64,000 bases of DNA, taken from assembly GCA_016647705.1 (NCBI GenBank), contig JAENRU010000472.1, forward strand, positions 124,001 through 188,000, in the 5' to 3' direction. Position numbers and translations under genes: made by a program. The stretch is from Eucommia ulmoides (taxonomy: Eukaryota > Streptophyta > Magnoliopsida > Garryales > Eucommiaceae). This document shows, piece by piece, positions 10,836 through 54,926 of this stretch. Within the stretch, counting starts at the first letter, position 1; every line of letters starts with the position of its first letter. A model generated the notes under the pieces. That model did no database searches. It was not told the origin of the DNA and was given only the letters and a program-made list of their open reading frames with translations.

Positions 10836-10848
10836 TGGTATCAGAGCC
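10836..10848 (+). other. Primer-binding site, initiator tRNA-Met type
   Basis: TGGTATCAGAGCC begins two bases after the 5' LTR and is the standard sequence complementary to the 3' end of plant initiator tRNA-Met. Confidence 0.92.
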
Positions 10849-11267
10849 ATTTTTGCCTCTGTCTTGTTGTTCTTGCATATAGTATCATGAGTTTTCATTA
10901 ATGAACATAATTGGGTTTTTCGAAAACTTCAATATTTCTGGGAAATTTTTGCATATAAAAAATCTATGTTTCATTACGAGTTCAATTTTTGATCAATTTT
11001 ATATGATTTTTTGAAGATAAGAAAAACGTATGCTCCTTTCTATTCGAACCTTCTGATCTAGGTTAGAGCTTAGGAAGAAGACGACTGCAACGGCGTCGTT
11101 TTGATAACTTGGCCAATCAGCAAAAGTGTTAAATTATAATTTGTTACCGCATTTACATTTCATGTCCGTTGTGTTGGTTTAGTGGAGTTGTGTCCTTAAT
11201 TCATGGTGCCAATAGCATTTTGGTCGAATTGATTCGGTTACAACTTTGTAGCATTTTTTTGTTTTTA

Positions 11268-11450
11268 TAATAACAAAAGGCATAATAACAGTGTCCCTAA
11301 GAGAGTTCGAACCCTAGCCCTATAAGATATAATAACAAAAGGCATAATAACAGTGAGAGTTCGAACCCTAGCCCTATAAGATATAATAACAAAAGGCATA
11401 ATAACAGTGTACATAAGAGAGTTCGAACCCTAGCCCTATAAGATATAGTA
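11268..11450. repeat. ~60 bp direct repeat, three units, in copia 1 leader
   Basis: Each unit runs AATAACAAAAGGCATAATAA, CAGTG, then GAGTTCGAACCCTAGCCC and TATAAGATAT. The middle unit lacks 9 bases after CAGTG. Each contains GTTCGAACCC, which resembles the tRNA T-arm/B-box consensus. Confidence 0.9.
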
Positions 11451-11784
11451 GGGTGGCACAACCAACAGAACACATCATGAATGTTGATGACAATTTCTCA
11501 CGTTTTTCACTTATTAATGGCAAGTCAGTGTGCATTATTCATTGAAATTAATTGTATGTTTAACATTTGTTAATTATTTTACATACAATATGGAGGCTAA
11601 ATAATGCACATTTACTCGAGGCAATTTAAATTTTGGACATGCATGCGTTTATATTATTTATCATATTATTTTGTGTGTATAATTTATTATTTTATTATAC
11701 ATGCAATATTAAGTTGAATAATATTAGTACAGTGATGTTCAATTTGTGTTATTGCTTATAGTTTATGCAATAAGTTTGAACCAT

Positions 11785-12360
11785 TATTATTTAATTTTGA
11801 GAGATCCATATAATTTAATTAATTAAAGAGTAGTCACAGCTTCTTTAGTTAATTAGAATTATATATTAAGTATTAAATATCACATTATAATTATTATGAA
11901 CTATTTAATTTTTGAGTGATTTATATAATTTTAATTAATTAAAGAGTAGCCACAGCATCTTTAGTTAATTAGAATGATATATTAAGTATTAAAGATCACA
12001 TTATGATTATTATGAACTATTTAATTTTTGAGTGATCTATATAATTTTAATTAATTAAAGAGTAGCCACAACATCTTTAGTTAATTAGAATTATATATTA
12101 AATATTAAGGATCACATTATGATTATTATGAATTATTTAATTTTTGAGTGATCTATATAATTTTAATTAATTAAAAAGTAGCCACAGCATCTTTAGTTAA
12201 TTAAAATTATATATATTCAGTATTAAGGATCACATTATGATAAAGTATGAATTATTTAATGTTGAGTAATCAATATGATTTTAATTAATTAAAGAGTAGC
12301 CACAACATCTTTAATTAATTGAAATTATACAATAAGTATTAAATATCACATTATGACATT
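11785..12360. repeat. ~117 bp tandem repeat, five units, in copia 1 leader
   Basis: Units contain TTTTAATTAATTAAAGAGTA, GCCACARCATCTTTAGTTAA and 'GATCACATTATGATTATTATGAA'-like text. They sit between the primer site and gag, in a region that would be transcribed but untranslated. Units differ by scattered substitutions, and the last is the most diverged. Confidence 0.92.
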
Positions 12361-12674
12361 AATTGTGGTTAATCATGCGTAATATAATAGATCTTATCCC
12401 ATAAGAATTTTTATTATATTTGCATGAATAATTAGGATAAAATATCAAATTATATTTCTTAATTTACCCACAGGAATTAAGAAATAAACATAATTTTGAT
12501 AGTTTTATCATAGGGTTATAACTGAATCTAATTGAATTAGAATTTTAGCCCACATACAAGTTTTATGTCACTAGATTCTTAAATTTTGGATTATGATTTT
12601 CATTAGTAAAACATGATATAAGTTTATAAGTCTCAATTTTAATTATAAGCATGTATATTTAATTTTATGCAGTC

Positions 12675-15600: not shown

Positions 15601-16742
15601 GAAATCCATATATGGTTTAAAACAAACTTCCCGTCAATGGTATTTAAAGTTTCATGATGTTATCTCTTCATTTGGATTTGTGGAGAACATCATGGATCAA
15701 TGTATATACCAAAAGGTCAGTGGGAGTTAGACTTGTTTTCTTATTCGGTATGTGGATGACATTTTACTTGAAACCAATGACAAGGGATTGTTATATGAGG
15801 TAAAACAATTTCTCTCTGAAAACTTTGATATGAAGGATATAGGTGATGCGTCTTATGTCATTGGCATTAAGGTACATAGAAACAGATTTCGAGGGATTTT
15901 GGGTCTGTCTCAAGAAACCTATATCAACAAAGTTTTAGAGAGATTTTGGATAAAAGATTGTTCACCAAGTATAGCTCCCATTGTGAAGTGTGACAAGTTT
16001 AATTTAAACTAGTGTCCAAAGAACGATTTTGAGTGGGAACAAATGAAAAACATTTCTTATGCTTCTGCGGTTGGAAGCCTAATGTATGCTCAGGTTTGCA
16101 CTAGACCTGACATTGCATTTGTTGTTGGGATGTTGGAAAGATATCAGAGTAATCTAGGTATGGACCACTTGAGAGCTGCAAAAAAGGTGCTGAGATACCT
16201 TCAAGGGATAAAAGACTATACGCTTATGTACAGACGGACTGAGAATTTAGAAGTGATTGGCTACTCTGATTCAGACTACGCTGGCTGCATAAATTCACGA
16301 AAATAAAACTTCAAGGTATGTTTTCATGCTAGCTGGTGGAGTTTTATCTTGGAGAAGCACAAAGCAGACTTTGACTGCCACTTCCACTATGGAAGCTGAG
16401 TTCGTATCGTGTTTCAAGGCTATCTCGCATGGTGTATGGATGAAGAGTTTCATTTCTGGGCTTAGAATTATGGATTCGATTTCTAGGCCACTAAGGATAT
16501 ATTGTGACAATTCAGCTGCTATTTTTATGGCTAAGAATAACAAAAGTGGTAGTTGAAGTAAGCACATCGACATCAAATATCTAGCCATAAGGGAACGTGT
16601 TAAGGATAAGACAGTGGTCATTGAACACATTAGCATTGAATTGATGATTGTTGATCCTTTAACTAAAGGTATACCACCATTGAAATTTAAGGTTCATGTA
16701 GATAAAATGGGACTTGGTTCCTTTATGAGATTTTCGTTGTAA
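12675..16742 (+). pseudogene. copia element 1 gag-pol, multiply broken
   Basis: In order: a gag domain (12675-13283) and a CX2CX4HX4C zinc knuckle at 13383-13424. Then a protease DSG at 13524-13532, an integrase with the pre-integrase WHQRLEHIS (13941), an RT with YVDD (15749-15760), and RNase H with the STMEAEF motif near 16387. Breaks: stops at 12861, 13281, 13317, 13404 (inside the knuckle), 13518 (beside the protease DSG), 15392, 15728, 16010 and 16554. Frameshifts lie near 14130-14178 and near 16300. The integrase residue expected to be the catalytic Glu (before RKNRTL) is Lys. Several stops are TGA where Trp or Gly is usual in the family. The normal role is reverse transcription and integration of the element. 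Confidence 0.92.
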
Positions 16743-17011
16743 GAACGAATTTTTATGAAACTCTGTTTGTGATGTTTTCTCGTATTTGATTTCTTGTGTA
16801 CACATTTATTTATTTGAGAAACATCATTGAGGTGGAACGTAGAATAAAAATAAGGTTTATTCATTAAAGTTATAGGGCTATAATGAGAAACGATGTGCAT
16901 TGTAATACATGGAAGATAATACTCGTTTTAGAGGACCTGTCACCATGATTCATGTATTTCGTTTCTTATTGTGATAAATGATGGAATATATATATGGACC
17001 AAGTGGGAGAA

Positions 17012-17503
17012 TGTTGGATGTTTTCTAAAAAAATCCTCAAGATCATGATCTATTCTTCCATTATTTTAGGAAGGTGGATCAATTTCCTCCAACCACCTTT
17101 GAATCCACGTCATGAACACCCTCCTCTTTTGTAAATCATGGCTACTACTACAAGAGTGGGTTACAAAACATGGGTTCATGGATAGCTAACTGCCCACTAC
17201 CTTTCTGCACGTCCAAAATCGACTCTTTGATGGGAAGAGTCTATATAAAGGGGTTGTGGATGAGGTTTTGGTTCCCCAAGCCTACAATCTCATTTTCAAA
17301 ACCATATACACCATCAAATCGAGATTGACTAAGATTTAGAAGAGCTTTAACCCAAAACCAACATTTCCCATGATCTTGAGCATCCGAGAATAGCAATGGC
17401 TGGAGGTACGCATTGACCCGTTCATTTTTTTTTATTTCAGCATTGATCTAATTGCTTATTTTATATGCATGAGCATGTTTAGATCGTTAAAGTTTATCCC
17501 ACA
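17012..17503 (+). repeat. 3' LTR of copia element 1
   Basis: It begins right after the purine tract ending at 17011 and matches the 5' LTR along its length, including TATATAAA at 17242-17249. It ends CCCACA, followed by ATAGA. Confidence 0.93.
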
Positions 17504-21078: not shown

Positions 21079-22064
21079 TGTTGAAACAAATGAATTTTAA
21101 TTTAATTTTTAGAATAGAAAGTGCCAAATGTGTCAAATTGGTTTTTTCCCTCAAATCCTTTTATCCCACATTGGTTGGGAGAGGTGAAATTAAAGTGGAT
21201 ATCTAGGGATAAGTGAGACACTTGAGGTGTGCCCCAAGGGGTACCCACATTTTGTAGAGGGGAGAGGAGCTACATCCCTATCGGTTTACCACGCGCGCGC
21301 GCCGCCCCCGTCGTCCGTCTGGCCGTGCCCAGTCGAATTGAGTTGCGCGTGTGATGAGGTGGCACTTATTTACTTTTTAGAAAAAATTTATTTAAAAATA
21401 TTTTTTAAAAAAAAACAGTTCAATTAAAAAAAATTAAAATAAACGTTTGAACTGTTCAAAAAAAATTTCAACCGTTAAAATAAAAAATAAATAAAATAAA
21501 AACGTTTTAATTAAGAAAAACGTTTTAACGTTTTTTAATTAAAACAGTTTAACATTTTTTTTAAGTTTCGGTTTCAAATTTTTTTTTTTTTTCAAACGGT
21601 TTGATTTTTTTTTTTTCCTATAAATACCAGTTTTGTTTCCTCAATTTTTAGAGAGAAAAAACACAGAACAGTGTTTCAACTTTGTTTCTGCTTCAGCTTT
21701 GTTTCTGTTTTTGTTTCGGCTTTATTTCTGTTTCTGTTTCGGCTTTGTTTTTGTTTCTGTTTCTGTTTCTATTCCGAAACATTTTCGGTTTGATCTTCCG
21801 GAATTGTTCCGATCTGTTCCGGTACTGTTTTTTCAGTTCGATTTTGGATTCCGAGCAGTTTGTTCGTTTTGCGAACGGTGTGTGGGGGTGTTTGGTTTTC
21901 GGGACTTCTACAGTGCAAAGAACGTCCTAGATAGAGGAGAATTCTGGGCTGTTTTATCCTGGGGACGACGGGGCTGATACACTTCTTGCACGTTCTTGGG
22001 CAGAGCCGCGAAACGTCTTAAAGAGAGCGACCTAGTCCGCGACTCATTCCAAGAAATTTTGGTA
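21079..22064 (+). repeat. 5' LTR of copia element 2
   Basis: It matches 26508-27487. It contains TATAAATA at 21619-21626, a (TTTCTG)-rich tract at about 21685-21775 and a GC-rich CGCGCGCGCC patch at 21291. Open frames in the tract encode only Phe/Cys/Ser-rich strings and are not genes. Confidence 0.92.
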
Positions 22065-23039
22065 CACTCGTTCTTTATTTATTTTCTGCAACAACAATTT
22101 TAAGACGTTTTCTTCTGCCATGTCTTCGATTACCAATTTAAGTATGTTGTTTCATGAACATGCTTGCGTTAATCATGTTGTTTCAATTAATTCCAGTTTT
22201 CCGAATTAATCATGATATTGTCTATTATACTTCCAAATCTGCGCTAATTCTTTTTTCGAATTACGGATCCGTGGATCTGCACTAATTTTTTAGTTCTGAG
22301 AATGTTAAATTTGTTGGATTACATGCATTCTTTTTAGGGCTTCTATCTTCTGCATAATATTTTTTTTTTTATGATGACAGAAAATGAATCTTTTTAATAC
22401 ATTGAATTGTTTGGGTGTTAACGTCTGGTTTATTGGGTTTTTTGTTTATATTTTTGGTAAATTTCACTTTTGCCCCTAATGTTACAATCACTTGCCTATG
22501 TAGTACATAACAATTATTGTTGAAATTGGTTTACTTGTGGGATGTTGAATTTGGTCAAGCTTTTGAGGTGTACTATTTATTGGTTTATCTGTGAATTATT
22601 TTAGTGCTCTTTACACTTTGGACCCCTGATTTTTGAAAAGTGGGTTGTTGAAACTTGAAAGGATTTTATTATGTGAATTGGTTATAGGTTATCATGTGAA
22701 TTATTTCACAGGCCTTACCGTCTGCTATGCGGTGCTTGTAGTATATCATGTGAATTGTTTTAGACCTTATTACATTAAACAACCTTGATTTTTGACCTAA
22801 ATCCCATTATGGTCCCTAAGGTTTCTATTGGACACTTAATACCCTAAAGTTTGCAATTGTTTAAATTATGGAAATTGTTCATGAAATTATTTTAGAAAGA
22901 TTTTAAGAGTACTATTTGCCCCTTAGTTGGAAATATTTTAAGAGTACTATTAGTCCCAAATAAAAGGATTTTTTTTAGAAAGTTTGATTACTAGTCTTCG
23001 TATTGAGGGGCAGTCCGTTAACAAAATCAATAAGATGAA
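22065..23039. other. Copia 2 internal leader and eroded gag
   Basis: Mostly non-coding and T-rich. Near 22975-23035 a frame with SLRIEGQSVNKIN resembles the last part of a copia gag, suggesting that the main gag domain was deleted. Scattered 'CACTTTGGACCCCTGA'-like text is present without a definable element. Confidence 0.5.
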
Positions 23040-25952
23040 GTGCTCGTTGTTTCCAACAACGCTCACAAGAGAACCACCTCCACTGTTATGAAACCCAAAG
23101 GGAAAAATATGAAAAACCAGAATGGACACAAACCCCCTTCAAGAAATGATTCTTCACAGTTTACTTACTATAGCTGTGGAAAGGCGGGCCATATGGCTCC
23201 GAACTGCCGGTTTAGAATTCGTCCTGCTCCGCAGGCGAATCTAACCGAAGACCAACTTGTGGCTATGATTTCTGAAATCAACATAGTTGGTGGATCCGAA
23301 GGGTAGAGGGTAGACATTGGTGTTTCTCACCATGTCTACAATGATTGTGCTATGTTCAGATCCTATTCTGCAACTGAGTACAAGAAAATATTGTTGGGTG
23401 ATTCTCACTCCACTATTGTTGATGATTTTGGTGAGGTGGATTTGGAGTTTACCTCTGGAAAGACTGTTATTCTTTAGGATATACTGTATACTCCAGAGAT
23501 GAGATAGAAATTGGTTTTGGGCTATCTTCTCAATAAGACCAGGTTTATTCAAACTATTGGGTTGATTTGTACACCTTAACTAAAAATAATGAATTTGATA
23601 GGGTCTTGACTAGAAATGGAAAACACTATTTTATTATGTTAATTAGTGATTACTTTAATTTTACTTATGTTTATCTCATGAAAAATAAAAGTGAAGCTTT
23701 TGAAATGTTTAAGAATTTTGTAACTGAGATTGAAAATCAATGCAATAAGAAAATTAAGAGATTACGTAGTGATAGAGGAACAGAATATGATTCCGATATT
23801 TTTATTGATTTTTATAAATCTCATGGGATTACTCATGAAAAAACTGCACCGTATTCTCCTGAAATGAATGGTAAGGCTGAAAGGAAAAATAGAACTTTTA
23901 CTGAATCAGTAGTTGCAATTTTACTTAACTTCGGTGCAGCTTCTCACTGGTGGGGTGAAATTTTATTAACGGTTTGCTATGTACTTAATAGAGTTCCCAA
24001 ATCGAAAAGTAAAATTTCACCTTATGAAGTTTTCAAAAATAAGAAACCAAATTTGTTTTATTTTAAAACTTGGGGTTGTTTGGCATATGTTCGAATTCCT
24101 AACCCCAAAAGAAGAAAACTTGCCAGTAGAGCTTATGAATGTGTTTTTATTGGTTATGCGGTAAATAGTAAAGCTTATAGATTTTATGATTTGAAAGGTA
24201 AAGTTATCATTGAATCAAATAATGCTGATTTTAATGAATATAAATTTCCTTTCAAATTGAAGAATAGTGGGGGCTCAACTTCTAGTAATGAACCTATCAT
24301 TAGGATTAATGAATCTAATAAGGAACTAGATATTGAACCTAGAAGGAGTAAACGACCTCGTATAGCTAAAGACTTTGGTTCGGATTTCTATGTATATACC
24401 TTAGAGGATGATCCACTTACCCTCCAAGAGGCTTTATCCTCTATAGATGCCAGTTTATGGCAAGAGGCTATAGATGACGAGTTAGACTCTCTCGAGTCAA
24501 ATAGAACTTGGCATTTGTTAGATTTACCTCCTGGTTGTAAAACAATAGGATGTAAATGGATTCTTAAGAAGAAATTGAATCCCGATGGAACCATTGATAA
24601 ATATAAGGCTCGTCTTGTAGCCAAAGGGTTTAGACAAAGAGAGAATATAGATTTCTTTGATACTTTCTTACCCGTCTCTAGAATTACATCTATTCGTGTA
24701 CTTTTATCTCTTGCTGCAATTCATAATCTTATTGTACACCAAATGGATATTAAAACTGCTTTTTTGAATGGTGAATTAGAAGAAGAGATTTATATGGACC
24801 AACCTGAAGGATTTGTTATTCCTGGTCTAGAAAACAAAGTATGCAAATTAGATAAATCTCTTTATGGTTTGAAATAAGCACCTAAGCAATGGCATGAGAA
24901 ATTTGATAATCTAGTCATTTCACATGGTTTTAAAGTAAATGAAAGTGACAAATGCATTTACTATAAATCTGAAAATAATGTTTGCACTATTGTATGTATT
25001 TATGTAGATGACTTGCTAATTTTTGGTTCCAATATTCATGTTGTGAATAATGTAAAATCCATGCTATGTGCTAACTTTGATATGAAAGATCTTGGTGAAG
25101 CAAGTGTAATCCTTGGTATTAAAATAACTAGGTCTAAACATGGAATTTCTTTGGATCAATCTCATTATATAGAGAAGATTCTAAAGAAATACAATTATTT
25201 TGATTGTAAACCAGCATGTACTCCTTATGACCCTAGTGTGAAGTTGTTCAAGAACACCGGTGACGGTGTTAGACAAACTGAGGATGCGAGCATCATAGGC
25301 AGTTTCCAATATGCCACTGACTGTACTAGGCCCGACATAGCGTATGCTGTTGGATTACTATGCAGGTTTACAAGTAGACCTAGTATTGAGCATTGGCATG
25401 CTATTGATAGGATTATGAGATATCTAAAGAGAACTATGAACCTTGGATTACATTATCAGAAGTTTCCCGCTGTTCTGGAAGGATATAGCGATGCTGATTG
25501 GAACACCCTTTCAGATGACTCCAAGGCAACTAACGGTTATATATTTAGTATAGCTAGTGGAGTTGTTTCTTGGAAATCTAAGAAACAGACTATTTTGGCT
25601 CAATCTACTATGGAGTCTGAGATGATTGCACTAGCTTCGGCTAGCGAGGAAGTAGGGTGGTTAAGGAGCCTGCTTTCTGATACCCCTTTACGAGAGAGAC
25701 CGATTCCAGCTGTCTTGATCCATTGTGATAGTACCGCGGCTATTGCAAAGATTCAGAACCGTTATTATAACGGAAAAAAAGCGACAAATACGTCGCAAAC
25801 ACAACACTATTAGGGAGTATATCTCTACAGGGGCTGTGAGAGTGGATCATGTACGGTCTGATGATAACTTAGCCGATCCTTTGACGAAAGGATTAGCTCG
25901 AGAAAAGGTTTACAAAACTTCGAAAGGAATGGGACTCAAGCCCATAGATTGA
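22985..25952 (+). pseudogene. copia element 2 gag-pol remnant
   Basis: The zinc knuckle near 23160-23215 reads YYSCGKAGHMAPNC, so its first Cys has become Tyr. The protease motif is altered (VDIGVSHHV), with stops at 23304 and 23476. The pre-integrase segment is missing. Integrase and RT share one frame of 436 codons (23567-24877). The second Asp and the Glu of integrase are spaced 35 residues apart (SDRGTEY ... NGKAERKNRTF), but the segment that normally holds the first catalytic Asp is changed. RT carries YVDD near 25001-25012. A TAA at 24875 follows YGLK where the family has Gln. RNase H motifs SDADW and STMESEM follow. A frameshift in an A-run near 25777 leaves the last frame (to 25952) displaced. 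Confidence 0.92.
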
Positions 25953-26507
25953 CAAGTCACTTGTGAGGGAAACCCAACCTATAGACTGGAGATCCCAAGA
26001 AATAGGTTCAAAGGGTAATAACAACTCATGAAGTGATATGAGAAAAATCGTGCTATAAATTTGAGTTCTATTTCATAAATGTGCTGTTTGAAGCATGATA
26101 TCTTGAAGCGATAGAAGGTTGAGTTTTTATTAACTCTTAATAAGATCTATATTCTATTTTGGAGTGGAGTACCTAGCTACAAGAGTACTCTTGATAGATT
26201 CACCTATGTGAATGTGGAAGTGTGGCCGCTTCCTATGGAATTTTGGGCAAAATTCTCTAAAGCATTCACTATACTGGGATACACGTGTATGGCCGTAAAG
26301 CACGGGCTTTTGGACTACACCCTGATAGGGTTGTGTGTGTGATGTTGTTAGAGATAAAGTTCAAAACTACGAGTTACTCTAGTATAATCTAAAGCATCTT
26401 CACTATGTAAAGGTTCAAGTCGATAGATACCTTTTCTTATGCATAATCTTATATTGAATTATACTGCTCGATGAAAAAAATTGTTTTTTAAAATTCAAGT
26501 GGGGGAT
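25953..26507. other. Copia 2 internal 3' untranslated region
   Basis: It lies between the end of pol and the 3' LTR. It ends in the purine tract at 26495-26507. No gene is seen. Confidence 0.7.
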
Positions 26508-27487
26508 TGTTGAAACAAATGAATTTTAATTTAATTTTTAGAATAAAAAGTGCCAAATGTGTCAAATTGGTTTTTTCCCTCAAATCCTTTTATCCCACAT
26601 TGGTTGGGAGAGGTGAAATTAAAGTGGATATCTAGGGGTAAGTGAGACACTTGGGGTGTGCCCCAAGGGGTACCCACATTTTGTGGAGGGGAGATGAGTT
26701 ACATCCCTACCGGTTTACCACACGCGCGCGCGCCGCCGCCGCCGTCCGGCCGGCTGTACCGAGTCGAGTCGAGTCGCGCGTGTGATGAGGTGGCACTTAT
26801 TTACTTTTTAGAAAAAATTTATTTAAAAATATTTTTTTAAAAAAAACAGTTTAATTAAAAAAATTAAAATAAACGTTTGAACTGTTCAAAAAAAAATTTA
26901 ACCGTTAAAATAATAAATAAATAAATAAAAATGTTTTAATTAACAAAAACGTTTTAACGTTTTTTAATTAAAACAGTTTAATGTTTTTTTTAAGTTTCGG
27001 TTTCAATTTTTTTTTTTTTTTCAAACGGTTTGATTTTTTTTTTTTCCTATAAATACCAGTTTTGTTTCCTCAATTTTTAGAGAGAAAAAACACAGAACAG
27101 TGTTTCAGCTTTGTTTCTGCTTCAGCTTTGTTTCTGTTTCTGTTTCGGCTTTGTTTCTGTTTCTGTTTCGGCTTTGTTTCTGTTTCTGTTTCTGTTCCGA
27201 AACATTTTCGGTTTGATCTTCCGGAATTATTTCGATCTGTTCCGGTACTGTTTTTTCAGTTCGATTTTGGATTCCGAACAGTTTGTTCGTTTTGCGAACG
27301 GTTTGTGGGGGTGTTTGGTTTTCGGGACTTCTACAGTGCAAAGAACGTCCTAGACAAAGGAGAATTCTGGGCTGTTTTATCCTGGGGACAACGGGGCTGA
27401 TACACTGCTTGCACGTTTTTGGGCAGAGCCGCGAAACGTCTTAAAGAGAGCGACCTAGTCCGCGACTCATCCCAAGAATTTTTGGTA
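26508..27487 (+). repeat. 3' LTR of copia element 2
   Basis: It is the counterpart of 21079-22064, with TATAAATA at 27048-27055 and the same TTTCTG-rich tract. It differs by scattered substitutions and small indels. Confidence 0.92.
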
Positions 27488-28092
27488 AACTGCTTGCAAA
27501 GAACGACAAGTAGCTCTCACCTAAGGGTAAAACTACAAATCAACAATGGTTTGAAAGTTTAAAGAACACCGAAAAATTGCTTCTTTGAAAAATGTTGATT
27601 TTGTAATTAAAAAAAAAAATAACTTTTTAAAAAAAAAATAAAGATCACCAATTTATTATTATTATTATTATTATTTTTTAAAAAACGTTGCCTAATTAAA
27701 TATTAAACAAAAAAGATTAATTATAACTAATTGAAAAAATGAGAAAAAAATGAAAAAGTTGAATTCAACAACAAAATCAGTTAAAAAATGTTGAATTTAT
27801 GAATGGATTGAGCCAATCCGTAACCACATTAACATTTTAAATTAGTTTTCAACAAAAAAAATGATCAAGATACTTATCCAACTAGAAGTACCAAAAAAAT
27901 AAATAAATAAATAAAATAAAATTCAAAATCATAGAAAAAGAGAAAAACTTGAATTCAACAAGAAAAACAATTAAAAAAATATTGAATTTTGTAATCCATA
28001 ACCACACAAAAATTAACATTTTCAAGTATTATTCAAATGGATTGAGCTAATCCATGACCATATCAAAATTAATATTTTCAATTATTTTTTTT
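27488..28092. repeat. AT-rich stretch with a dispersed repeat shared with 52725-52990
   Basis: No gene. The text 'TTGAATTTATGAATGGATTG', 'AGCCAATCCGTAACCAC', 'ACTTATCCAACTAGAAGTAC' and 'TTGAATTCAACAAGAAAAA' at 27790-28075 recurs in the same order at 52725-52990. This marks a dispersed repeat of about 270 bp of unknown type. An ATT microsatellite lies at 27653-27675. Confidence 0.6.
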
Positions 28093-35984: not shown

Positions 35985-36486
35985 GAAGGGTATCAGAGTG
36001 GAATTATTAGTAATACTAATTTATTTATAAATGGTGGGATATTTGAGGAAGAATTTTCTATAGAAGAAATCAAGTGGTGGCCCTAGGCGACTGGGCCGTT
36101 ATACTATGTTGGTATAATATTATAAGTAATAAAATCACTAATTATACACATAAATATTATAATAAATTACATTATAAATTTATATTGGAATTCATAAAGT
36201 TATTTTAATAAATTTTATAATTTAATCACAACATGTAATTAAAACACATAATTATAACCATTATAAATATATTATTAATAATAATTTTATTAAATAAAAT
36301 AATAAATTTATATATATCATAAAATATTTAATTTTAAATTATTTTCCTAATAACTGCTACCTTGGAAAAGTAAATCAAGAAAATAACGATTTTTTTTTTC
36401 TTTTGTTAAAAACTACTGGTTTGCCTATGGAAACAGCCCTGTATTCTCACTGCTTCCAACACAAGCCATGGACTCACTCACTGTTC
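35985..36486. promoter_or_regulatory. Upstream block duplicated before all three germin-like copies
   Basis: From 36110 the text TATAATATTATAAGTAATAA, 'TTATACACATAAATATTATA' and 'CACCTTGGAAAAG'-like segments matches 50825-51137 and 53735-54341. The duplicated units therefore include about 300-400 bp of 5' flank with the promoter. 35985-36109 is leftover gypsy-type sequence. Confidence 0.7.
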
Positions 36487-36494
36487 TATATAAA
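36487..36494 (+). promoter_or_regulatory. TATA box of germin-like copy 1
   Basis: TATATAAA lies 63 bases before the ATG. The surrounding TTCTATATAAACCTATC is shared by all three copies. Confidence 0.75.
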
Positions 36495-36549
36495 CCTATC
36501 CAACTCCCTCCATGAAATCAGCAAATCGAATCCAAAACACCCATAAAAA

Positions 36550-36930
36550 ATGCTTCGGTTTCTCTTCTTCATTTGTTTCCTCCTGCTCTCCTCCAATGCA
36601 ACAGTTCAAGACTTTTGTGTGGGTAACCTAGAACTCCCTGAAGGCCCTGCGGGTTACTCCTGCAAGAGCCCTGCTAATGTCACAGTGGATGACTTTGTGT
36701 TTTTGGGACTAGCCGTGGCCGGAAACACTTCCAACACCGCAAAATCTGCCCCGACTCCGGCATTTTCCGCTCAATTTCCGGGTTTGAACGGCTTGGGCCT
36801 CTCCATGGTGCGGTTGGACCTATCCCTCGACTGGGTGATTCCAATGCACACACACCATGGTGGCTCCGAAGTCATTCTAGTGATTCAGTGCTCCATTACT
36901 GCTGGTTTCATCTCGGCTGAAACATATTAA
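36550..36930 (+). pseudogene. GLP: Germin-like protein copy 1, 3'-truncated
   Basis: The open frame of 126 codons has a hydrophobic signal peptide, the early Cys pair (DFCVGN ... GYSC) and germin box 1 with MHTHHGGSE. The two His and the Glu that bind manganese are therefore present. The frame closes with TAA right after GFISAET, losing box 2 with the fourth ligand (FPQGLLHF in the intact copy) and the C-terminal third of the usual ~210-residue cupin. The Gly just after the box-1 Glu block is Cys. Sequence after the stop jumps into what is 3' flank in copy 3 (CATACGGATTCAGATTCAAA), so a deletion removed the rest. A hAT element landed 12 bases downstream. It is most likely non-functional. Confidence 0.85.
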
Positions 36931-36942
36931 AACTATATACAC

Positions 36943-37480
36943 TAGGGATAGTCATGGGCCTGAAGGTCCGATCGGCCCGCCTAGCCCGGCCCTATTTTTT
37001 TAGGATTGGGCTTGGTGTTTGAGCCCATGGGCCGGGCTAAGGCCTAAAGATTAAGGCCCATTCATTTTTAGGGCCGGGCTAAGGCTTGATCATTTTTGTT
37101 TAGGGCCGGCCCGGCCCGAACTATTTTAAAATATAAAATATATATATTTTATATATATATCCATAGAGAAAGAGGTGAGGGGCCATTTTGTAATTTATAA
37201 TTTTGGCTAGATAATTTAGCAAACCCTAGTTTCATTTCTCTCATAGAGAGAGAATTGAGGAATCATTTTGTAATTTTCGTATTTAGTTTTAAAATTTAAA
37301 AAAAAAAAATTATAGGGCCGGGTTAGGGCCGAGCCTGGGCTTAATTTCTTTTTGTAGGGCCGGGTTTGGGCATAAAATTAGGGCCCGATCATAGGGCCGG
37401 ACCGGGCTAGGGCCTAACATTTTTGTGTAATACCCTAGTCAAAACCCTACCCGGCCCGGCCCGGCTCATGACCATCCCTA
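36943..37480. mobile_element. hAT-type non-autonomous element, 538 bp
   Basis: The ends are TAGGGATAGTCATGGGCC and, reverse-complemented, TAGGGATGGTCATGAGCC (16 of 18 match). Perfect 8 bp target duplications, ATATACAC, lie at 36935-36942 and 37481-37488, the length expected for hAT transposition. The arms are rich in GGGCCGGGC repeats and the centre is AT-rich. No transposase. A diverged relative lies at 58207-58671. Confidence 0.92.
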
Positions 37481-38140
37481 ATATACACCAATATATTGGC
37501 CAACCATACGGATTCAGATTCAAAAAGAACACTCTTTGAGTATAAAAACAACTCGGAAACATGTTACTCGAGGAAATAGTCTCACGAGTGACGACAGATT
37601 GGTATCCATAACCTACCCCCCATGTAATCTTGGGCAATGTATTTGTGCACATAGTTGGTATCCCTTATATTTTAAATAGTCTCACGAGTGACGAGTGATT
37701 GGTAACAATAACCTACCCCCCATGTATTTATGGGCAATTTTTTTGTGCAAAAGACAAAACGAACACTATTAAAAATCCCATTCTTAACGAGATTACTGCT
37801 AAAACTTGATGAATCATGGTTTATTAGATATTCTTTTTGTTTTTAATATATTTTTTTTGTCATATATCCTTTTGTTTTATTTTTTAATATATTAAAATAA
37901 TTTGTGTTCCTAAGCACGGGATATCCACTATATAACATCCTACATGACAGACTTTCCGGTCAAGACAAATGTCCCGAAGGACATGTCCTCCTGTAAAGAC
38001 ACACGCTATGAAATAACAAATTAATAATTTTCATTATTGGTTTTGATGTTTGTGGTTGTAGGTAGTGACGGTATATCCTGTAATGATATTTTTGGTGTTG
38101 AGTCTGATGATTTTTTTGTTTAATTACCTAAATATTAAGG
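37481..38140. other. Germin copy 1 downstream flank with a ~98 bp tandem repeat
   Basis: 37490-37530 matches the flank of germin copy 3 at 54992-55027. Then ATAGTCTCACGAGTGACGA, 'GATTGGTA' and 'ATAACCTACCCCCCATGTA' occurs twice, at 37577-37652 and 37675-37749. No gene in the rest. Confidence 0.6.
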
Positions 38141-38149: not shown

Positions 38150-38184
38150 TTCGTCTGTACCTTCAGGCACGGGTTATACGCTAG
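38150..38184 (+). mobile_element. Helitron 3'-terminus-like sequence
   Basis: CTTCAGGCACGGGTTATACG then CTAG and T resembles the terminus on the opposite strand at 45813-45850 (GGCACGGGTTATGTCCTAG when reverse-complemented). Its hairpin partner arm is partly degenerate here. The matching 5' end was not found. Confidence 0.5.
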
Positions 38185-43910: not shown

Positions 43911-44365
43911 AATAATATTATGATTAATATTCTTTTTTAGTATATCCACGAGTGTCTCCACAATCACATAGAATTTGAGACTAATCTCGTTTAGGGTTCC
44001 ATGGCTGCCCTTCCCAATCACTGGTGTTAAGTTGAAATCACCGGCGATGGTTGGGTGAACGAAGAGAGGCAACCAACCTCCCGTCTCTCCATGCTCAGCT
44101 ACTACCTCATTCTTAAACTAATGAGATTGTTTGGGTTAGTTACACTTTGCGCCACTGTAGTTTGACCTAACTGCATAAGGGTAAAATTATATTTTTACCC
44201 TTACAATAAAGCATGTGCAAGTTGCATGTGAAAATCTGTCAATATTAACCCATATGTTTTTTACAAAAGGGCCACATAAAAAATAGTGAGAAAACACGTG
44301 GGTCAATTTGAATATCTGTTTTTTTTTTTTTTTTTTTTTTTTCCGAAACAGAAATTCAAAATCCG

Positions 44366-44371
44366 TTTTCC

Positions 44372-44428
<57 letters not shown>

Positions 44429-45812
44429 ATTTTGTTAATGTATAAAGTGGGGGGAAAGAAATTAGTAAAATAACTTAAAATATTAAGTAGTAATTTCTTC
44501 CCTCCGGGGAAGAAATTAGTAAAATAATTTAAAATATTAAGTACTAATCTCTCTCTCCCCTTCTCCCCCAATATATTAACAATATCTTATATATATATTC
44601 AAGAATGGCGACTTTTTTTTATTTTTGGTACAAAGAACGGTGCCTTCTTTTAGGATTGATATGATGACTATACACACTAATTTCTTTTCCCCCTCCTTGA
44701 CATTTTGTACATTTACAATATTATATATATATATATATATATATAAACAACTTCATATTCCGTATTGTTTACGTTACACACATACTAATATAAATATTTT
44801 ATATTCTTTCAATATTTTGCTCTCAATTTTTCTAATATGGTATCAATACCCAACTCTTTTCTAATATGGTATCTACCCAATTTCAATATCTTTAAATAAC
44901 AAAGAACGTTAACAATTAAATAAAAAAATAAAAAATAATAGAATAGACAGAAAATTCATTTCTGGTAGATCGAGGCGTATAAATATTGTTGTAAGAAGAT
45001 ATATGCTCCCTCTATGCACATGGTTGAATGGCGAGCCCTTCCCAAGATACAACAATTCAGGAAGTCAAGAGATAAGCAAGACATCTCTATATTGAACCGA
45101 TCGTGAATCTTATTACTCGTAAATTATCAAGTACATAATATACGTGAAATATCATAAAATATAATTTCTCCCTATTTTTGTCTCAATAAAACCATATTAC
45201 TTCATAAACTATTATCATCTAGTATCACACTATTTTATCGTTTAGATACTGTATGAATTATGCAACTCTTATTGCAATATTAAGTACTAATATTATGATT
45301 AATATTTTATTTTTTTTGTATACCCACGAGTGTCTCCACAACCACATAGAGTTTGAGACTAATTTCATTCAGAGTTCCGTGGCTGCTCTTCCTAATCACC
45401 GGTGTTAGGTTGAAATGACAGGCGATGGTTGGGCGAACGGAGAGAGGCAACCACCCTTTGAAACCTCCCGTCTCTCCGTGCTCAGCCACTGTGTCATTCT
45501 TAAACTATTGAGATTTTTTGGGTTAGTTACACTTTGCACCCCTATAGTTTGACCTACTTTACACTTTTCACCACTGTAGTTTGACCTAACTGCATAGGGC
45601 TAAAATTATATTTTTACCCTTACAATAAATCATGTGCAAGTCGCATGCGAAAATCTGTCAATATTAACCCATATTTTTTACGAAAGGGCAACACAAAAAA
45701 TCGTGACCAAATACAAGGGTCACTTTGAATATCTGTTGTTTTTTTTTTTTTTTTTTTTTTTTTTTTCGGAAACGGAAATTCGAAATCCATTTTCCAATTA
45801 TATATATATATA
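44366..45812. repeat. Tandem unit copy B (complete, ~1.45 kb)
   Basis: It starts in an (AT)n run and includes a small inverted-repeat element (44427-44590), a 'GGTGCCTTCTTTTAGGATTG' segment and the block shared with copies A and C. It ends with 'GGAAATTCGAAATCCATTTT' before another (AT)n, where the Helitron inserted. No open frame resembles a gene. Confidence 0.8.
44427..44590. mobile_element. Small MITE-like inverted-repeat element
   Basis: It is bounded by AAGATTTTGTTAATGTAT and, reverse-complemented, AAGATATTGTTAATATAT, within TA-rich flanks. A sister copy lies at 49795-49907 in unit C. TA-type target duplications cannot be distinguished from the surrounding AT repeats. Confidence 0.55.
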
Positions 45813-46028
45813 CTAGGACATAACCCGTGCCTGAAGGCACAAGTTTTAATTTTTTTTATGTTTAAAATTGATTAAATTGCTCTATTAATATATACTCCAA
45901 GCACCTTGGAAATGAAATTGCAAACAAAACAACCCTTAGAACTAATGTCACGTTGAGTTTAAATATTATACAAAGAAAAAAAACCAAAATATTTTTATGA
46001 CCAATCATAACACTTTCTCTTTTGATGT

Positions 46029-46320
46029 TCACATTTTTAATAGATGATAAACTTGGTTTTGAAGCATTCTAAAAATTCTCAAATTATCCATCTCCAAAAC
46101 AGGTTGTATTCCTGAATTGACACTTACACCACATTTTGATCCGAAATTAAACAATGAACCAAATGGGTCTTTATTCGAATTCATCTCACTTCCAATTCCA
46201 GTCATATTCCGCATAGATGAACCTCCACGATTCGAATTTTTGGCATTACTACCCATGTTAACATTGGTGTTAACATTTGATGCACTTGTATAACATTGAT
46301 GTTACCTAGTTTGGGCAATA
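46029..46320 (-). pseudogene. Unidentified exon-like fragment, possibly auxilin-like
   Basis: The minus-strand frame is rich in Asn, Ser, Gly and Met and contains NSNKDPFGSLFNFGSK, with a DPF motif seen in clathrin-adaptor and auxilin-type proteins. Upstream codons extend the frame (ASNVNTNVNMGSNAK). A plant auxilin-like J-protein is the best guess but is not secure. It lies inside the Helitron candidate. Confidence 0.3.
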
Positions 46321-47383
46321 AATTAATCACGCTCCCATCAAATAGGCACCCTTAAAAAATTAAAAATATTTTGACATAATTTCCTATGTTTATATGACAC
46401 ACTCTAATATTCGAAAAAAAAAAATCAAATGAACACAATAAATAATTAAAGTAAAAAAATTTGGACATAGCTTTCTTGATTTATATGACATTTGAAATTT
46501 TCAACTCTTGTTTTATAATAACGCGACATTGACAAACACAACCAATATCAATTAGCCATGACAACAACGAACACAATCACATTATAAACTTAGTAATATA
46601 AGTCCACCACCCATGACACTGGAGCCCACCACCCAGGACTACTGGAATTTACCTTAATTATAGTCCATCAAGCCATAGATTATCTCCATTTGTCTTCAAT
46701 ATTTGAAGTGGCACATGTTCGTATATCGTCTAGTGAAAATCAAACACAATAATTATCCACTTGATAATAAATTAGAATCATATTTAAGACAAACAAATAA
46801 ATAAGTCCACTCATGGTTACGGGAAATTACCTTAAACATCGACTCTCAAACCAAAAATTAACGACGACATTAGAGCATACCAAACAAATGGAACTTACAT
46901 TAAATGTTCCAAATATAACTCCAATTTTTAATAATCTTGTAAAAAAATTATCACCACCTAGAAAAAAATGACAAATAATTGGATCACATTTAAATGCATA
47001 AGTAGGAAAATGATAATATTTCTAAAAACACAGCAAGTAGGCAAGAAACAACTATTCAACAGGTACCAGAACTAAAACTAAAAAAATATGTAATGAGAAA
47101 TTTGGACATATTTATAGGACATTCCAAATTTCGAACACAACATTAACAAACATGTTCGTTAAAACTTCAATTCGTGTATAACTTCTTTGTCTTCGGAGCA
47201 TTCTTCCAAATGCTTTTCATTTCTAATAATTGCCTTATTTATAGTTTGCATTCAAAATAGAGGACACAATTACAACAAACAATATATAAACACAAATATA
47301 TGCTGAAATATGCCAACACACGATACCAATGAAAAAGTTACAAAGAAAATAAAACAGTAGAAATGGGTTGCGTGAGCGCTTAC

Positions 47384-47598
47384 AAAGTCATCGAGCTCAA
47401 TACGCCATCAAGATAAATACCAAAGTTGAAGCCCAAAAATTCAAATTCTTCTTGTGCTAAATGAAGATGGTGAGGATTTACAACCAAACAGACGTTGTGT
47501 TTGGGAAAGAAGACGATTGGAGAGAGAATAGAGAACTCACTGTAAGTGCGACTTAGGGCCTCCAATAGGTGGTCTCGACTGACGCTGACAGTAGGCAT
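47384..47598 (-). pseudogene. Phenylalanyl-tRNA synthetase beta-subunit exons 1-2 (captured)
   Basis: Starting with ATG at 47598 the frame reads MPTVSVSRDHLLEALSRTY to an A/GTGAGT donor (exon end 47541). After an intron-like 84 bases ending TTTAG, exon 2 (47456-47384) continues TQEEFEFLGFNFGIYLDGV to a GTAAGC donor. Plant cytosolic PheRS beta begins MPTVSVGRDRLFAALGRTYT followed by QEEFEELCF-FGIELDDV. The splice phase restores RTYTQEEFE exactly. PheRS charges tRNA-Phe as an alpha2-beta2 enzyme. Only the first ~45 of some 590 residues are present, with introns kept, so this is a DNA-level capture inside a Helitron rather than a processed copy. It cannot make the enzyme. Confidence 0.88.
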
Positions 47599-47967
47599 TG
47601 TGGTGGCAAATCTTCACATCAACAAAAGAATGTATGAAATTTGAACACAACATGTGCCCTATTATTTAACGCCTATCAAATAAGAGCCAAACATAAGGTT
47701 AAACCTTTTGACACTGTCAGTTGTAAAATATGGCGCAATGAACATTAATTTAGAAACTGAAGAATTTAAAAAAACATAAAATAATAATGACCTAGATGCA
47801 TCTCCTGGAGTATGAAGCATAAAATAAAATTAAGAATAATCTTATTAAATCCAATTACTTACGTCAAAACATCCCAGATTAGAAATTCGACGAAGTAAAA
47901 AATACCAATCGGTTAATGTACAATAATCAAAGCATTCCCCTTTGAAGGGGTTGTGGGGGCCTTGGTG

Positions 47968-48092
47968 TTAGAATTGGCAGTATGGAGTATAAGCATTAGA
48001 AGATGGAGCTTTCGGGATGACTTCGGCACCTTTCTGAGTCAAAACAACAACTGGCTTGACAGTAGTGCCTATAGATGGTGCATCAGATGAAC
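47968..48092 (-). pseudogene. Unidentified terminal-exon-like fragment
   Basis: On the minus strand, after a TTGCAG acceptor, the frame reads SSDAPSIGTTVKPVVVLTQK, GAEVIPKAPSSNAY, TPYCQF and TAA. It looks like the last exon of a host gene. I do not recognise the protein. It lies inside the Helitron candidate, in the same direction as the PheRS piece. Confidence 0.4.
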
Positions 48093-48574
48093 CTGCAATA
48101 TAGAAAAAAACCCAATTGCAAATCACAAATGTTGCTTCAATTCACTAATCATTGTCAACCTTATTCTAGTAATCACAATCTAAACAACATCACTTTCTCA
48201 AAGCAAAATCTATCATATCTGCTCCTTCAAAATTCACAAATCATTGTCAAAATTATTCTTGAAATCACAATCTAGACAACTAATTTTAGAGGTAAGGCAA
48301 GAGAAATCCAAAAAAAATAAAGGTTTAGGCCACCTAACATGTAATGGTGATTGTACATGGATACACAAATAATGTAGTTCATCCTATCTATCGCATACCT
48401 CGTTGACTTCTCATCCAACCACCCTGGATCTTTTTTTTTGGGTGCTGCAGCTAAACAGAGAGATAGAGAAAGACAGATTGGGGAACGGTTTCTGTTTTGG
48501 GCGTGCTGCAGAAATTGATAACCTAACTATAAATTTAGACAATTATCAAAGAATTAATTTACAAAAAATTATTA

Positions 48575-48850
48575 ACACTAATTAAAGACACTAATCCCTT
48601 ACCTGAACAAAAAAGGAAGGAGACACAACGGTGACAGCAGAGGCAGAACAAGAGAACCTGAATTTAAGCAGATTCAACACCCAAATTCAGAGGGGAACAG
48701 TGGAAATCTTAACCCTAATTGAAGACACTAATCACTTACCTGAATAAAATCAAAGACGAATGGAGGAGACGCAACGGTGACGGCAGCGGCTTAACAGGAG
48801 ACCTGGAATTTCAGCAGATTCAACACCCAAATCAGATCCAAATTGCAAGA
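48575..48850. repeat. ~128 bp duplication inside the Helitron
   Basis: 'AGACACTAATCCCTTACCTG', 'GGAGACRCAACGGTGAC', 'GCAGATTCAACACCCAAAT' appear at 48587-48695 and 48723-48835. Confidence 0.75.
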
Positions 48851-49136
48851 AACAGATAAATAAATTGGAGAAATTAAGAGGGGAACTCACAATTTTTTTT
48901 TTAGAAATTCGTCGATTAAAACCCTGAAGAATACCGATCTATCTTTGGGTTTACTCCCCATTGATTTGATCAGAGATATGAACACAAATGTTGGAGGCGA
49001 AACACAAAGAAATGGGTTCTCGTCAATGTCCAACCTTGAGAGAGAGAAATAGAAAAATCAATTGGTTTGAACAAAAATCTTGAACAGAAATCAAGAATCT
49101 AAAGAAGAAGAAAATGGAAAGAGAAGAAAGTTAGGC

Positions 49137-49547
49137 TTACTGTTTGCAGTGGAGAGGGCGATGGCAACTGCGACAGTGCTGAGAGGCATTGGAGGATCGA
49201 TCAATCGAAGACTGGGCGAAGATGAGCGATCGACCAAAGGCTGAGCAAAGAGGATCGAATAGGGTTTCTAGAATACAGAGGGTAGAAGTAGCGGTGATGG
49301 CTCGACGACGGCATGGGAAAGCAGTAGGAGCGAGGGAGAGGAGTAGAGAAAGGGTGCTAACAAGGAGGTGATGGCACAGCGAGGATGGCGAGAGAGAGAG
49401 AGAATGGAGATAGGAGATAGAAGCCGATCTTCGGCGATGGCGATGAAGGAGGTGACGACGGTGGTGGCGATGGAGATGATGGAATGATGATATGGCCGAG
49501 GGAAAGAGGAAGGTTGGAAGAGAACGAACTAACCCTAACCCTACCAA
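49137..49547 (-). other. Unidentified open frame in the Helitron
   Basis: The 136-codon minus-strand frame is rich in His, Arg, Ser and Leu. It starts with MVGLGLVRSL and ends near an ACA/GTAAGC donor-like site (49141). No motif or family is recognised. The low-complexity His/Arg run and the GA/CT-rich DNA make a chance frame likely; a captured first exon with 5' UTR is the alternative. Confidence 0.2.
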
Positions 49548-49764
49548 TTAAGAGTTTGATTGAATAAGTAATCTATGAAGTTAACCCTTGATCTAATCTG
49601 ATCGGATGACCAAAAATGTCTCTTAGTATCATTTAATTTCGTCCGTTGGATATCCATCCAAAAGTTTGAAATGTCTCAAATATAAAATACCTCCAGGTGC
49701 AATCTCAAGCGTCAGATATCCGATCTGACGGCTCAAAATGTCTCAAAATGTAAATATGTTGTGA

Positions 49765-49929
49765 TTTATATATATATATATATATAAGATTTTGTTAATG
49801 TATAAAGTGGGGCGAAAGAAATTAGTAAAATAACTTAAAATATTAAGTACTAATTCTCTCCCCCCCCCCCCCCCCCCCCTCTCTCAATACATTAACAATA
49901 TCTTTTATATATATATATTCAAGAATGGC

Positions 49930-49968
<39 letters not shown>

Positions 49969-50057
49969 GTACAAAGAATGGTGCCTTCTTTTAGGATTGA
50001 TATGATGGCTATACACACCAATTTCTTTTCCCCCTCTTTCACATTTTATACATTAAC

Positions 50058-50095
<38 letters not shown>

Positions 50096-50628
50096 AACTT
50101 CATATATATTCAATATTTTTTACGTTACACACATACCAACATAAATATTTTATATTCTTTCAATATTCTACTCTCATTTGTTTTTAATATTGTATCAATA
50201 GCCAACTTTTCCGAACTCTTTTCTAATATGCTATCGATCCAATTTCAATCTCTTTAAATAACTAAGAACATCAACAATTAAATTAATAAATAATAAAATA
50301 GAATAGAGAGAAAATACATATTTGGTAGATCGAGGTGAATAACCATTGTTTTAAGAAGAGATACATTCTCTCTATGTACATGGTCGAATGACGAGCTCTT
50401 CACAAGATACAACGATCCAAGAAGTCAAGGTGCAAGCAATACATCTTTATATTGAATCGATTGCAAATCTTATTACCCATAAATCATCAACTATATAATA
50501 TACGTGAAATATCACAAAATATAATTTCTCTCTATTTTTATGTCTTAATAAAACTATATTACTCATAAACTATCATCATTTAGTATCACATTATTTCCTC
50601 TAAATTTCTCTAAGTCACTTTTTTTTTT

Positions 50629-50824: not shown

Positions 50825-51137
50825 AGCCACACTATGTTGATATAATATTATAATTAATAAAATCTCTAATTATATACATAAATATTATAATAAATTACTA
50901 TAATGGAATTCAAAAAGTCATTTTAATAAATTTTATAATTTAATCATAATAATAATGTGTATTAGAAATGTAATTAGAACGCACAATTATAACTATTATA
51001 AATATTTTACTAATAACAATTTTATTAAATAAAATAATGTAACTTATAGCTGCCACCTTAGAAAAGTGTATCAGAGAGAATGTAAAATATTCTTTCATGC
51101 AAGTGGTTTGAAAGATGATGGATCATGAAATTTGTTC
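50825..51137. promoter_or_regulatory. Upstream block of germin-like copy 2
   Basis: It matches 36110-36486 and 53735-54341, with TATAATATTATAATTAATAA and 'GCCACCTTAGAAAAGT'. Conservation may reflect only the shared duplication. No specific transcription-factor site can be claimed. Confidence 0.6.
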
Positions 51138-51145
51138 TATATAAA
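51138..51145 (+). promoter_or_regulatory. TATA box of germin-like copy 2
   Basis: TATATAAA lies 62 bases before the ATG, at the same spacing in all three copies, giving an expected transcription start near 51170. Confidence 0.8.
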
Positions 51146-51199
51146 CCTATCCAAACCCCCCCATGAAATCAGCAAATCGAATCCAGATCCCTATCGAAA

Positions 51200-51871
51200 A
51201 TGCTTCGTTTTTTCTTCTTCTTCATCATTTCTTTCCTCGCCGTCTCCTCCTCCATTAATGCAGCTTCAGTTCAAGACTTTTGTGTGGGTAACCTAGAACT
51301 CCCTCAGGGCCCTGCGGGTTACGCCTGCATGGTCGCTTCTGCTGTGTCAGTGAATAACTTTGTGTTTTCAGGGCTAGCCGTGGCCGGAAACACGTCCAAT
51401 ATCTTTAGAGCCGCGGTGACGTTTGCATTTGTCGATGAATTTCCGGGGTTGAACGGCCTGGGCCTCTCCATGGCGCGGTTGGACCTGGCCCCCGGCGGAG
51501 TGATTCCAATGCACACACACCGTGGTGGCTCCGAAGTGATTATAGTGATTCAGGGCTCCATTATTGCTGGTTTCATCTCCTCGGACGACGTCCCTTATGT
51601 GAGAACACTGGAGGTGGGTGAAATCATGATATTTCCTCAGGGCTTGTTGCATTTTCAAATAAATGATGGTAGCACACCGGCTCTTGCCTTTGTGAGTTTG
51701 AACAGCCCAAACCCCGGCATCCAAATCCTTGCTACTTCATTGTTTGGGAACGACTTGCCTACCCAATACGTGGAAGCGACCACATTCATCGATGCTGTTG
51801 AGGTGAATAGGCTCAAGGCTGTTTTCGGAGGCACCAGAGAAGTCCGCCTTCGCCAAAAATGTAGTACCTAA
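51200..51871 (+). CDS. GLP: Germin-like protein, ABP19/ABP20 type, intact
   Basis: An intronless frame of 223 codons, near the usual 205-225 for the family. Residues 1-22 form a signal peptide, so the product is expected in the cell wall or apoplast. Cys28 and Cys43 can form the conserved germin disulfide. Box 1 ([20 protein letters not shown], 99-118) supplies His105, His107 and Glu112. Box 2 ([16 protein letters not shown], 140-155) supplies His151, completing the manganese site of the cupin barrel. N64-T-S is a glycosylation sequon. The VQDFCVGNL and AGNTSN motifs resemble peach-type auxin-binding ABP19/ABP20. Activity (superoxide dismutase, auxin binding or other) cannot be read from sequence. 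The C-terminus is unusual: a short REVRLRQKC tail with an extra Cys. TATA and AATAAA signals frame it. It is the only complete gene seen here. Confidence 0.9.
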
Positions 51872-53734: not shown

Positions 53735-54341
53735 TGTATATGTTGCTATAAAAAAATATTATAATTAATAAAATTACTAATTATACACATAAATATTATA
53801 ATAACTTAAATTATAACATATATGTCTATAATGTAATTCACAAAGTCATTTTAATAAATTTTATAATGACAATAATATAAACATGTAATTAGAATATATA
53901 ATTATAATCATTATTAATATATTATTAATAATAATTTTGTTAAATAAAATAATATATTTTATAAATAGAATACAACAGTATGTAATAACAACTAAGTTTT
54001 TGTCCCACTTAAATAAGATCGGTTACATGAATCCGTTTGCGTCATAATGAACAATCAAAAGTCATTCTTTTAGTTAGATTCAATGTCCTCAAATCAATTA
54101 TAATAGTCTCGTCTCAAATTTTTGTAGGCCTACCTCTCCTTTTAGTAATCCCGTACTTCAATTAAATCGCATTTTCTTACTAGTGCAGGCACATATCTAA
54201 ACTTCCATATCTTTTCTTCTAATTTATATATATAATAAAATAATTAATTTTAAATTATTTTTCTAACCACCTCCGCCTTGGAAAAGTAAATCAAAGAAAG
54301 AGTCAAATATTGTTTCCTACACATGGTTTGAAAGATGGTTC
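53735..54341. promoter_or_regulatory. Upstream block of germin-like copy 3, with an insertion
   Basis: It matches the copy 1 and copy 2 upstream blocks except for an extra ~260 bp at about 53968-54226. That insert contains 'GTCCCACTTAAATAAGATCG', 'GGTTACATGAATCC' and 'CTACCTCTCCTTTTAGT', text typical of a small dispersed plant element (possibly SINE-like). Confidence 0.55.
53968..54226. mobile_element. Small dispersed element in germin copy 3 promoter flank, SINE-like
   Basis: It is defined by its absence from the two sister upstream blocks. The class is not certain: no terminal inverted repeats, and a clean target duplication is hidden by AT-rich flanks. Confidence 0.4.
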
Positions 54342-54349
54342 TATATAAA
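54342..54349 (+). promoter_or_regulatory. TATA box of germin-like copy 3
   Basis: TATATAAA lies 63 bases before the ATG, in the same context as in the other two copies. Confidence 0.75.
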
Positions 54350-54404
54350 CCTATCAAAACCCCTCCATGAAATTAGCAAATCGAATCCAGATCACCCATC
54401 GAAA

Positions 54405-54926
54405 ATGCTTCGGTTCTTCTTCTTCTTCTTCATTTCTTTCCTCATCTTCTCCTCCTTCATTAATGCAGCTGTTCAAGACTTTTGTGTAGGTAACCTAAAT
54501 CTCCCTGAAGGCCCTGCGGGTTACGCTTGCAAGAGCCCTCCTAAAGTCACAGTGGATGACTTTGTGTTTTCAGGGCTAGCCGTGGCCGGAAACACTTCCA
54601 ACATCCTAAAAGCTGCTGCGACTCCGGCATTTTCCACTCAATTTCCGGGGTTGAACGGCCTGGGCCTCTCCATGGCGAAATTGGACCTGGCCCCCTGCGG
54701 GGTGATTCCAATGCGCACACACCATGGTGGCTCCAAAGTGATTATAGTGATTCGGGGCTCCATTACTGCTGGTTTCATCTCCTCGGCTGACGTCCCTTAT
54801 GTGAAAACACTGAAGGTGGGTGAAATCATGATTTTTCCTCAGGGGTTGTTGCATTTTCAAATAAATGAAGGTAGCACACCGGCTAAGTTTGCCTTTGCCA
54901 GAAATGTATCTAAGCATGCAAAATAG
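54405..54926 (+). pseudogene. GLP: Germin-like protein copy 3, internally deleted and ligand-defective
   Basis: The 173-codon frame matches the intact copy from the signal peptide to GSTPA. Box 1 reads MRTHHGGSK, so one manganese His is Arg and the Glu is Lys. Box 2 ([11 protein letters not shown]) is kept. After GSTPA the sequence jumps to what is the last coding bases and 3' UTR in the intact copy (TTYGCCARAAATGTA, then AARCATGYAAAATARCGATA). An internal deletion of about 180 bp therefore removed the last 60 or so residues and left a new 14-residue tail ending SKHAK. With two of four metal ligands gone and the C-terminal helices missing, it is very unlikely to fold as an active germin despite its open frame. 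Confidence 0.85.

Follow-up and report, generated by a model that had tools for sequence, protein, structure and literature searches.

A probable non-autonomous Helitron carrying the start of a PheRS beta gene in Eucommia ulmoides

Helitrons are described as transposons that begin with TC, end with CTRR, carry a palindrome near the 3' end and insert between A and T (PMC2575219; PMC4778049). In maize, more than 90% of the identified Helitrons were reported to have captured gene fragments, and the stepwise uptake of several pieces was described (PMC3288121). The experimental basis for read-through capture was reported for Helraiser/Helibat, a family from bats that has a transposase and a palindrome of 19 bp; in this element the 3' end was reported to be bypassed and flanking sequence to be transduced, and a read-through model was proposed (PMC4778049). 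Fragments of host genes are also reported from other transposons, such as Pack-MULE and CACTA elements (PMC13317346; PMC1947982).

Here we describe a 3,952-bp segment at 45813-49764 on the minus strand (5' end at 49764, 3' end at 45813) of a 64-kb window, by which we mean the whole stretch of Eucommia ulmoides DNA that was analysed. Based on comparison with an empty site and on TC...CTAG termini lying between A and T, we consider it very probable that this segment is a Helitron, apparently non-autonomous and mobilised in trans, which captured PheRS beta DNA earlier and inserted into the (AT)n run of a repeat copy after that repeat had been duplicated. It resembles the gene-fragment Helitrons of maize in its TC/CTAG ends, 3' hairpin, A/T insertion, captured pieces and size of a few kb (PMC3288121; PMC2575219), while the captured gene here is PheRS beta, and the likeness is one of features rather than of family sequence comparison. 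The TC/CTAG ends are also shared with Helraiser/Helibat, in which the distance from hairpin to end is reported as 11 nt (PMC4778049), compared with the 9 nt that follow the predicted stem in the present element; unlike in that family, a transposase was not found in the scanned frames. As in Pack-MULEs, a host gene fragment is carried, but the element lacks inverted repeats and has Helitron-type ends.

Borders, empty site and termini

Self-comparison of the window revealed that the segment at 45813-49764 splits a locally duplicated repeat. The left flank (45288-45812) matches 43913-44388 at 81% and the right flank (49764-50596) matches 44404-45235 at 79%, so that the halves of one continuous neighbouring stretch abut the segment at 45812 and 49764. 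When joined, the flanks align over the junction to the uninterrupted copy (44200-44600). In this alignment, the simple runs and the more distant parts show substitutions and differ in length, and one flank reads TTTATAT where pure (AT)n would be expected. The self-comparison and the joined-flank alignment both place the empty site of the neighbouring copy at 44388-44404, inside an (AT)n run. Because the target is such a run, a few bases of slack are left at each border, and it is the Helitron end motifs that choose 45813 and 49764 within this slack; the segment is flanked by A and T, and the (AT)n target would hide any short target-site duplication. The earlier note had claimed that the borders are set independently of the termini by the tandem unit that the segment interrupts, and this is upheld, since the neighbouring copy without the segment defines the two borders with an uncertainty of only a few bases of (AT)n. 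As that copy lacks the insertion, the insertion is probably later than the duplication of the repeat.

On the minus strand, the termini read TCACAACATATT...GTGCCTTCAGGCACGGGTTATGTCCTAG; the segment begins with TCACAACATATTTACATTTTGAG and finishes with AAAACTTGTGCCTTCAGGCACGGGTTATGTCCTAG, an A preceding it and a T following it. The 5' terminal region, which opens with TCACAACATATTTACATTTTGAG, is taken to span 49551-49764 (minus strand), its inner limit being our estimate. The 3' terminus (45813-45845, minus strand) is predicted to form a 10-bp stem with a 4-nt loop (TTCA), followed by 9 nt that finish with CTAG, and the predicted stem comprises a GTGCC/GGCAC core together with two G-T pairs, one C-G pair and two A-T pairs. 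Folded as single-stranded DNA, the 3' 40 nt gave -6.6 kcal/mol against a mean of -2.27 for shuffled sequences (z -2.79), with 3 of 200 shuffles folding as well. Under a rule for 3' sites that called for CTRR+T after a perfectly paired stem of 5 bp or more, with at least 4 G/C, a loop of 3-6 and a distance of 4-15 nt, the two strands of the window together yielded three sites, and one of them lies exactly at the 45813 border. The TC start, GTGCC/GGCAC hairpin and CTAG end that the earlier note had read from the sequence are present at borders known independently to within a few bases, and the A and T that it named flank them. Terminal inverted repeats are absent, the longest inverted match between the outer 150 bases of the two ends being 7 bp and the longest direct match 8 bp. 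The hairpin is reported to work as a terminator in Helraiser (PMC4778049); in maize, however, 16 of 35 Helitrons were reported to have weak 3' hairpins, with little sign that hairpins matter (PMC2575219), and we therefore treat the hairpin as modest evidence that should not be over-weighted.

The PheRS beta fragment and the rest of the interior

Within the element, the beginning of a PheRS beta gene can be read on the minus strand. Exon 1 (47541-47598, minus strand), delimited by the splice reading and by Pfam and PDB matches, covers 58 nt from the ATG (MPTVSVSRDHLLEALSRTY); it is followed by the retained intron 1 (47457-47540, minus strand; 84 nt, GTGAGT...TTTAG), which is in frame and has no stop, and by exon 2 (47384-47456, minus strand; 73 nt), after which comes a donor-like GTAAGC. 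The splice signals are canonical, and joining the two exons yields RTYTQEEFE. As it stands, the spliced peptide matched PF18262 with E=1.5e-10 and 41.6 bits (cut-off 26.8), and the PheRS beta chain 3l4g_B, presumably the human one, with E=4.7e-9, where a manual count gave 25 identities among 41 aligned residues. The unspliced frame was narrowly above the PF18262 cut-off (27.7 bits), and it gave no candidates in a protein search that cannot reach full-length relatives of so short a piece. These matches support the assignment of 47598-47384 to the N-terminus (B1 domain) of PheRS beta, and the two of them, to PF18262 and 3l4g_B, agree with the earlier note, which had proposed exons 1 and 2 with their intron and the RTYTQEEFE splice. 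Because the intron is kept, what was captured would be DNA rather than processed mRNA, and a captured processed cDNA was rejected.

Exon 2 is where that earlier reading needs correction. It contains two adjacent 17-nt units (47387-47420, minus strand; 47420-47404 and 47403-47387) that are identical at 13 of 17 positions and that we read as a tandem duplication shifting the frame of the exon. The second unit encodes IELDD, which is closer to the family but lies in the shifted frame, so that the conserved GIELDD is out of frame; exons 1 and 2 themselves contain no stop. When one unit was omitted, the match became slightly better (46.4 bits in the Pfam scan; in a separate search, E=8.1e-10). Since the duplication, as read, breaks the frame, the fragment appears to be decayed and not a working gene, while its capture is borne out. 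As to whether the PheRS exons run on beyond the element, homology to PheRS was seen only in 47598-47384, host repeat begins directly beyond each border, and Pfam detected no PheRS domain in the other scanned frames of the element or in eight open frames outside it. Keyword searches of the literature library turned up no published Helitron that has taken up PheRS sequence.

The element has 57 open frames that reach 35 aa, of which 35 were scanned with Pfam (minus strand, 25 of 29; plus strand, 10 of 28), and among these only the PheRS frame exceeded its cut-off. Sub-cut-off matches, the best of them to PilZN3 in a plus-strand frame (E=0.025), were attributed to chance. There was no Rep/Hel domain in the same 25 minus-strand and 10 plus-strand frames, and for this reason the element is filed as apparently non-autonomous and an autonomous element was rejected. 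Open frames of similar size occur on the plus strand as well.

Several other pieces of the interior stand out, and none of them was assigned to a family or homologue. A 90-aa open frame at 46032-46301 (minus strand), taken from the frame list, is a possible second captured piece with no family or homologue match, and the protein search mentioned above, with the same limit for short queries, gave no candidates for it. At 47971-48092 (minus strand), an exon-like open piece follows a TGCAG acceptor-like site and ends in a stop, and it has no Pfam match; a PDB search with 47971-48141 at a limit of E=10 gave five matches, one of them to another protein and the rest to antibody chains (best E=0.058), which we attribute to chance. 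An internal duplication at 48572-48836 (minus strand) consists of 48572-48691 and 48709-48836, 80% alike, with a TTCAGGTAAG donor-like site in each copy. Near the 5' end, a GC-rich (about 0.48-0.56), CT-rich, leader-like stretch (49140-49547, minus strand) is possibly captured. For the exon-like pieces that the earlier note had listed besides PheRS, the open frames are indeed there in the orientation given, but a family or homologue was found for none; a chimeric transcript from the element is a possibility. In 150-base steps, GC is about 0.39-0.41 at 46500-46749, 0.38-0.43 at 47400-47649, 0.40-0.43 at 47900-48149, 0.38-0.40 at 48300-48549, 0.40-0.43 at 48600-48849 and 0.48-0.56 at 49100-49549, and about 0.24-0.39 in the remaining element. 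This profile is consistent with a patchwork interior, without proving one.

A second 3' end and neighbouring features

A second Helitron-type 3' end lies outside this element at 38158-38184 on the plus strand. When the 19-base end GGCACGGGTTATGTCCTAG was searched with up to three mismatches, the window held two matches, its own site and plus-strand 38166-38184, compared with 0.01 on average in shuffled sequence. The last 27 bases of the second end are identical to the element's 3' end at 23 positions (28 of 40 over a longer span), and it directly adjoins a TG/TA run and then another copy of the interrupted repeat. We take it to be a probable decayed relative. Its hairpin, however, folds no better than shuffled sequences (87 of 200 as good), and the end may therefore be decayed or functionally unrelated. 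Self-comparison found no second copy of the element's 5' end in the window, and no second copy with both ends is present within the 64 kb. Exact scans of viral contigs and prokaryote genome contigs gave no match to the 3' end, as expected for plant DNA.

Judged by its germin-like and Copia-type content, the window resembles nuclear DNA of a plant. In the PDB, the germin-like cupin gene at 51167-51868 has its matches among oxalate oxidase chains (best E=4.8e-36), which we take to be plant germins. Germin-like copies are found on the plus strand at 36482-36930, 51133-51871 and 54273-54926, 81-86% alike at the DNA level; the first is cut short, and the second is the one on which the Pfam and PDB basis rests. 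Just behind the truncated germin-like frame, an inserted piece at 36943-37480 has inverted-repeat ends (TAGGGATAGTCATGGGCC / GGCTCATGACCATCCCTA) and, by eye, 8-bp flanking repeats (ATATACAC) at 36935-36942 and 37481-37488; it is presumably a hAT-type non-autonomous element. Direct repeats of about 94% (21079-22068 and 26508-27491) enclose reverse transcriptase and retroviral SH3-like frames (23537-25810) in a retrotransposon at 21079-27491 on the plus strand, and direct repeats of 91% (10307-10833 and 16986-17503) enclose gag-pre-integrase, integrase and reverse transcriptase frames (13521-15391) in another at 10307-17503 on the same strand, both of which we assume to be of the Copia type. No RNA families were detected in the window at Rfam gathering thresholds.

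Competing explanations and implications

It is very unlikely that the segment is a different gene-capturing transposon, that is, a Pack-MULE, especially one without inverted repeats, or a CACTA element. Such elements share the habit of carrying host gene fragments, their target-site duplication could hide inside the (AT)n run, and the frame at 48890-49057 weakly matches Transposase_21 (E=0.18; 11.4 bits, cut-off 28.6), a family that we take to represent CACTA elements. However, the segment has no terminal inverted repeats, a CTAG end with a hairpin sits exactly on its border, and a similar CTAG end occurs elsewhere in the window; a Pack-MULE or any other element of the inverted-repeat kind was rejected for its lack of terminal repeats. 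An origin without any transposon, as filler DNA or a templated insertion made during double-strand break repair at the microsatellite from genomic scraps including PheRS beta, would agree with the (AT)n target and with the alternation of GC-richer islands and AT-rich DNA inside the segment. This is likewise very unlikely, as TC, hairpin and CTAG would have to meet the borders by chance; the two strands of the 64 kb hold just three comparable 3' sites.

Compatible with a Helitron, but going further, is the idea that the PheRS fragment is expressed under selection and donates exons to a chimeric transcript of the host. Intact splice sites, open frames in a single orientation and the GC-rich leader-like stretch near the 5' end could be read in its favour, whereas the duplication in exon 2 shifts the frame, open frames of comparable size exist on the opposite strand too, and the other pieces match no known family; we consider this idea very unlikely. 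Similarly improbable, in our view, is that transcription from the GC-rich 5' part yields a spliced chimeric RNA in which pieces of several genes are fused with the beginning of PheRS beta, and that the family repeatedly hits the dinucleotide microsatellites of the repeat, which would make a local hotspot; two insertions or remnants, this element and the 38158-38184 end, lie beside two copies of the repeat.

Taken together, we favour a non-autonomous Helitron, which the Rep/helicase protein of an autonomous relative would have mobilised in trans. During an earlier transposition, genomic PheRS beta DNA comprising the start codon, exon 1, intron 1 and exon 2 may have been copied into it, and pieces of other genes were perhaps picked up likewise. 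Judging from the anatomy of the element, capture at the DNA level during rolling-circle (peel-and-paste) transposition is the likeliest account. In the order that seems most plausible, the repeat near the germin-like genes would have been duplicated first, and the element would then have inserted between A and T of the (AT)n run.

The capture of PheRS beta adds one more gene to those taken up by Helitrons, a common event in plants, and leaves the knowledge of Helitrons unchanged. For annotation, it is a warning against calling the start of a functional PheRS beta gene at 47598-47384. With an empty site and a kept intron, the locus is a clean case of gene-fragment capture by a Helitron, and the element is useful as a seed for defining its family in the host genome.
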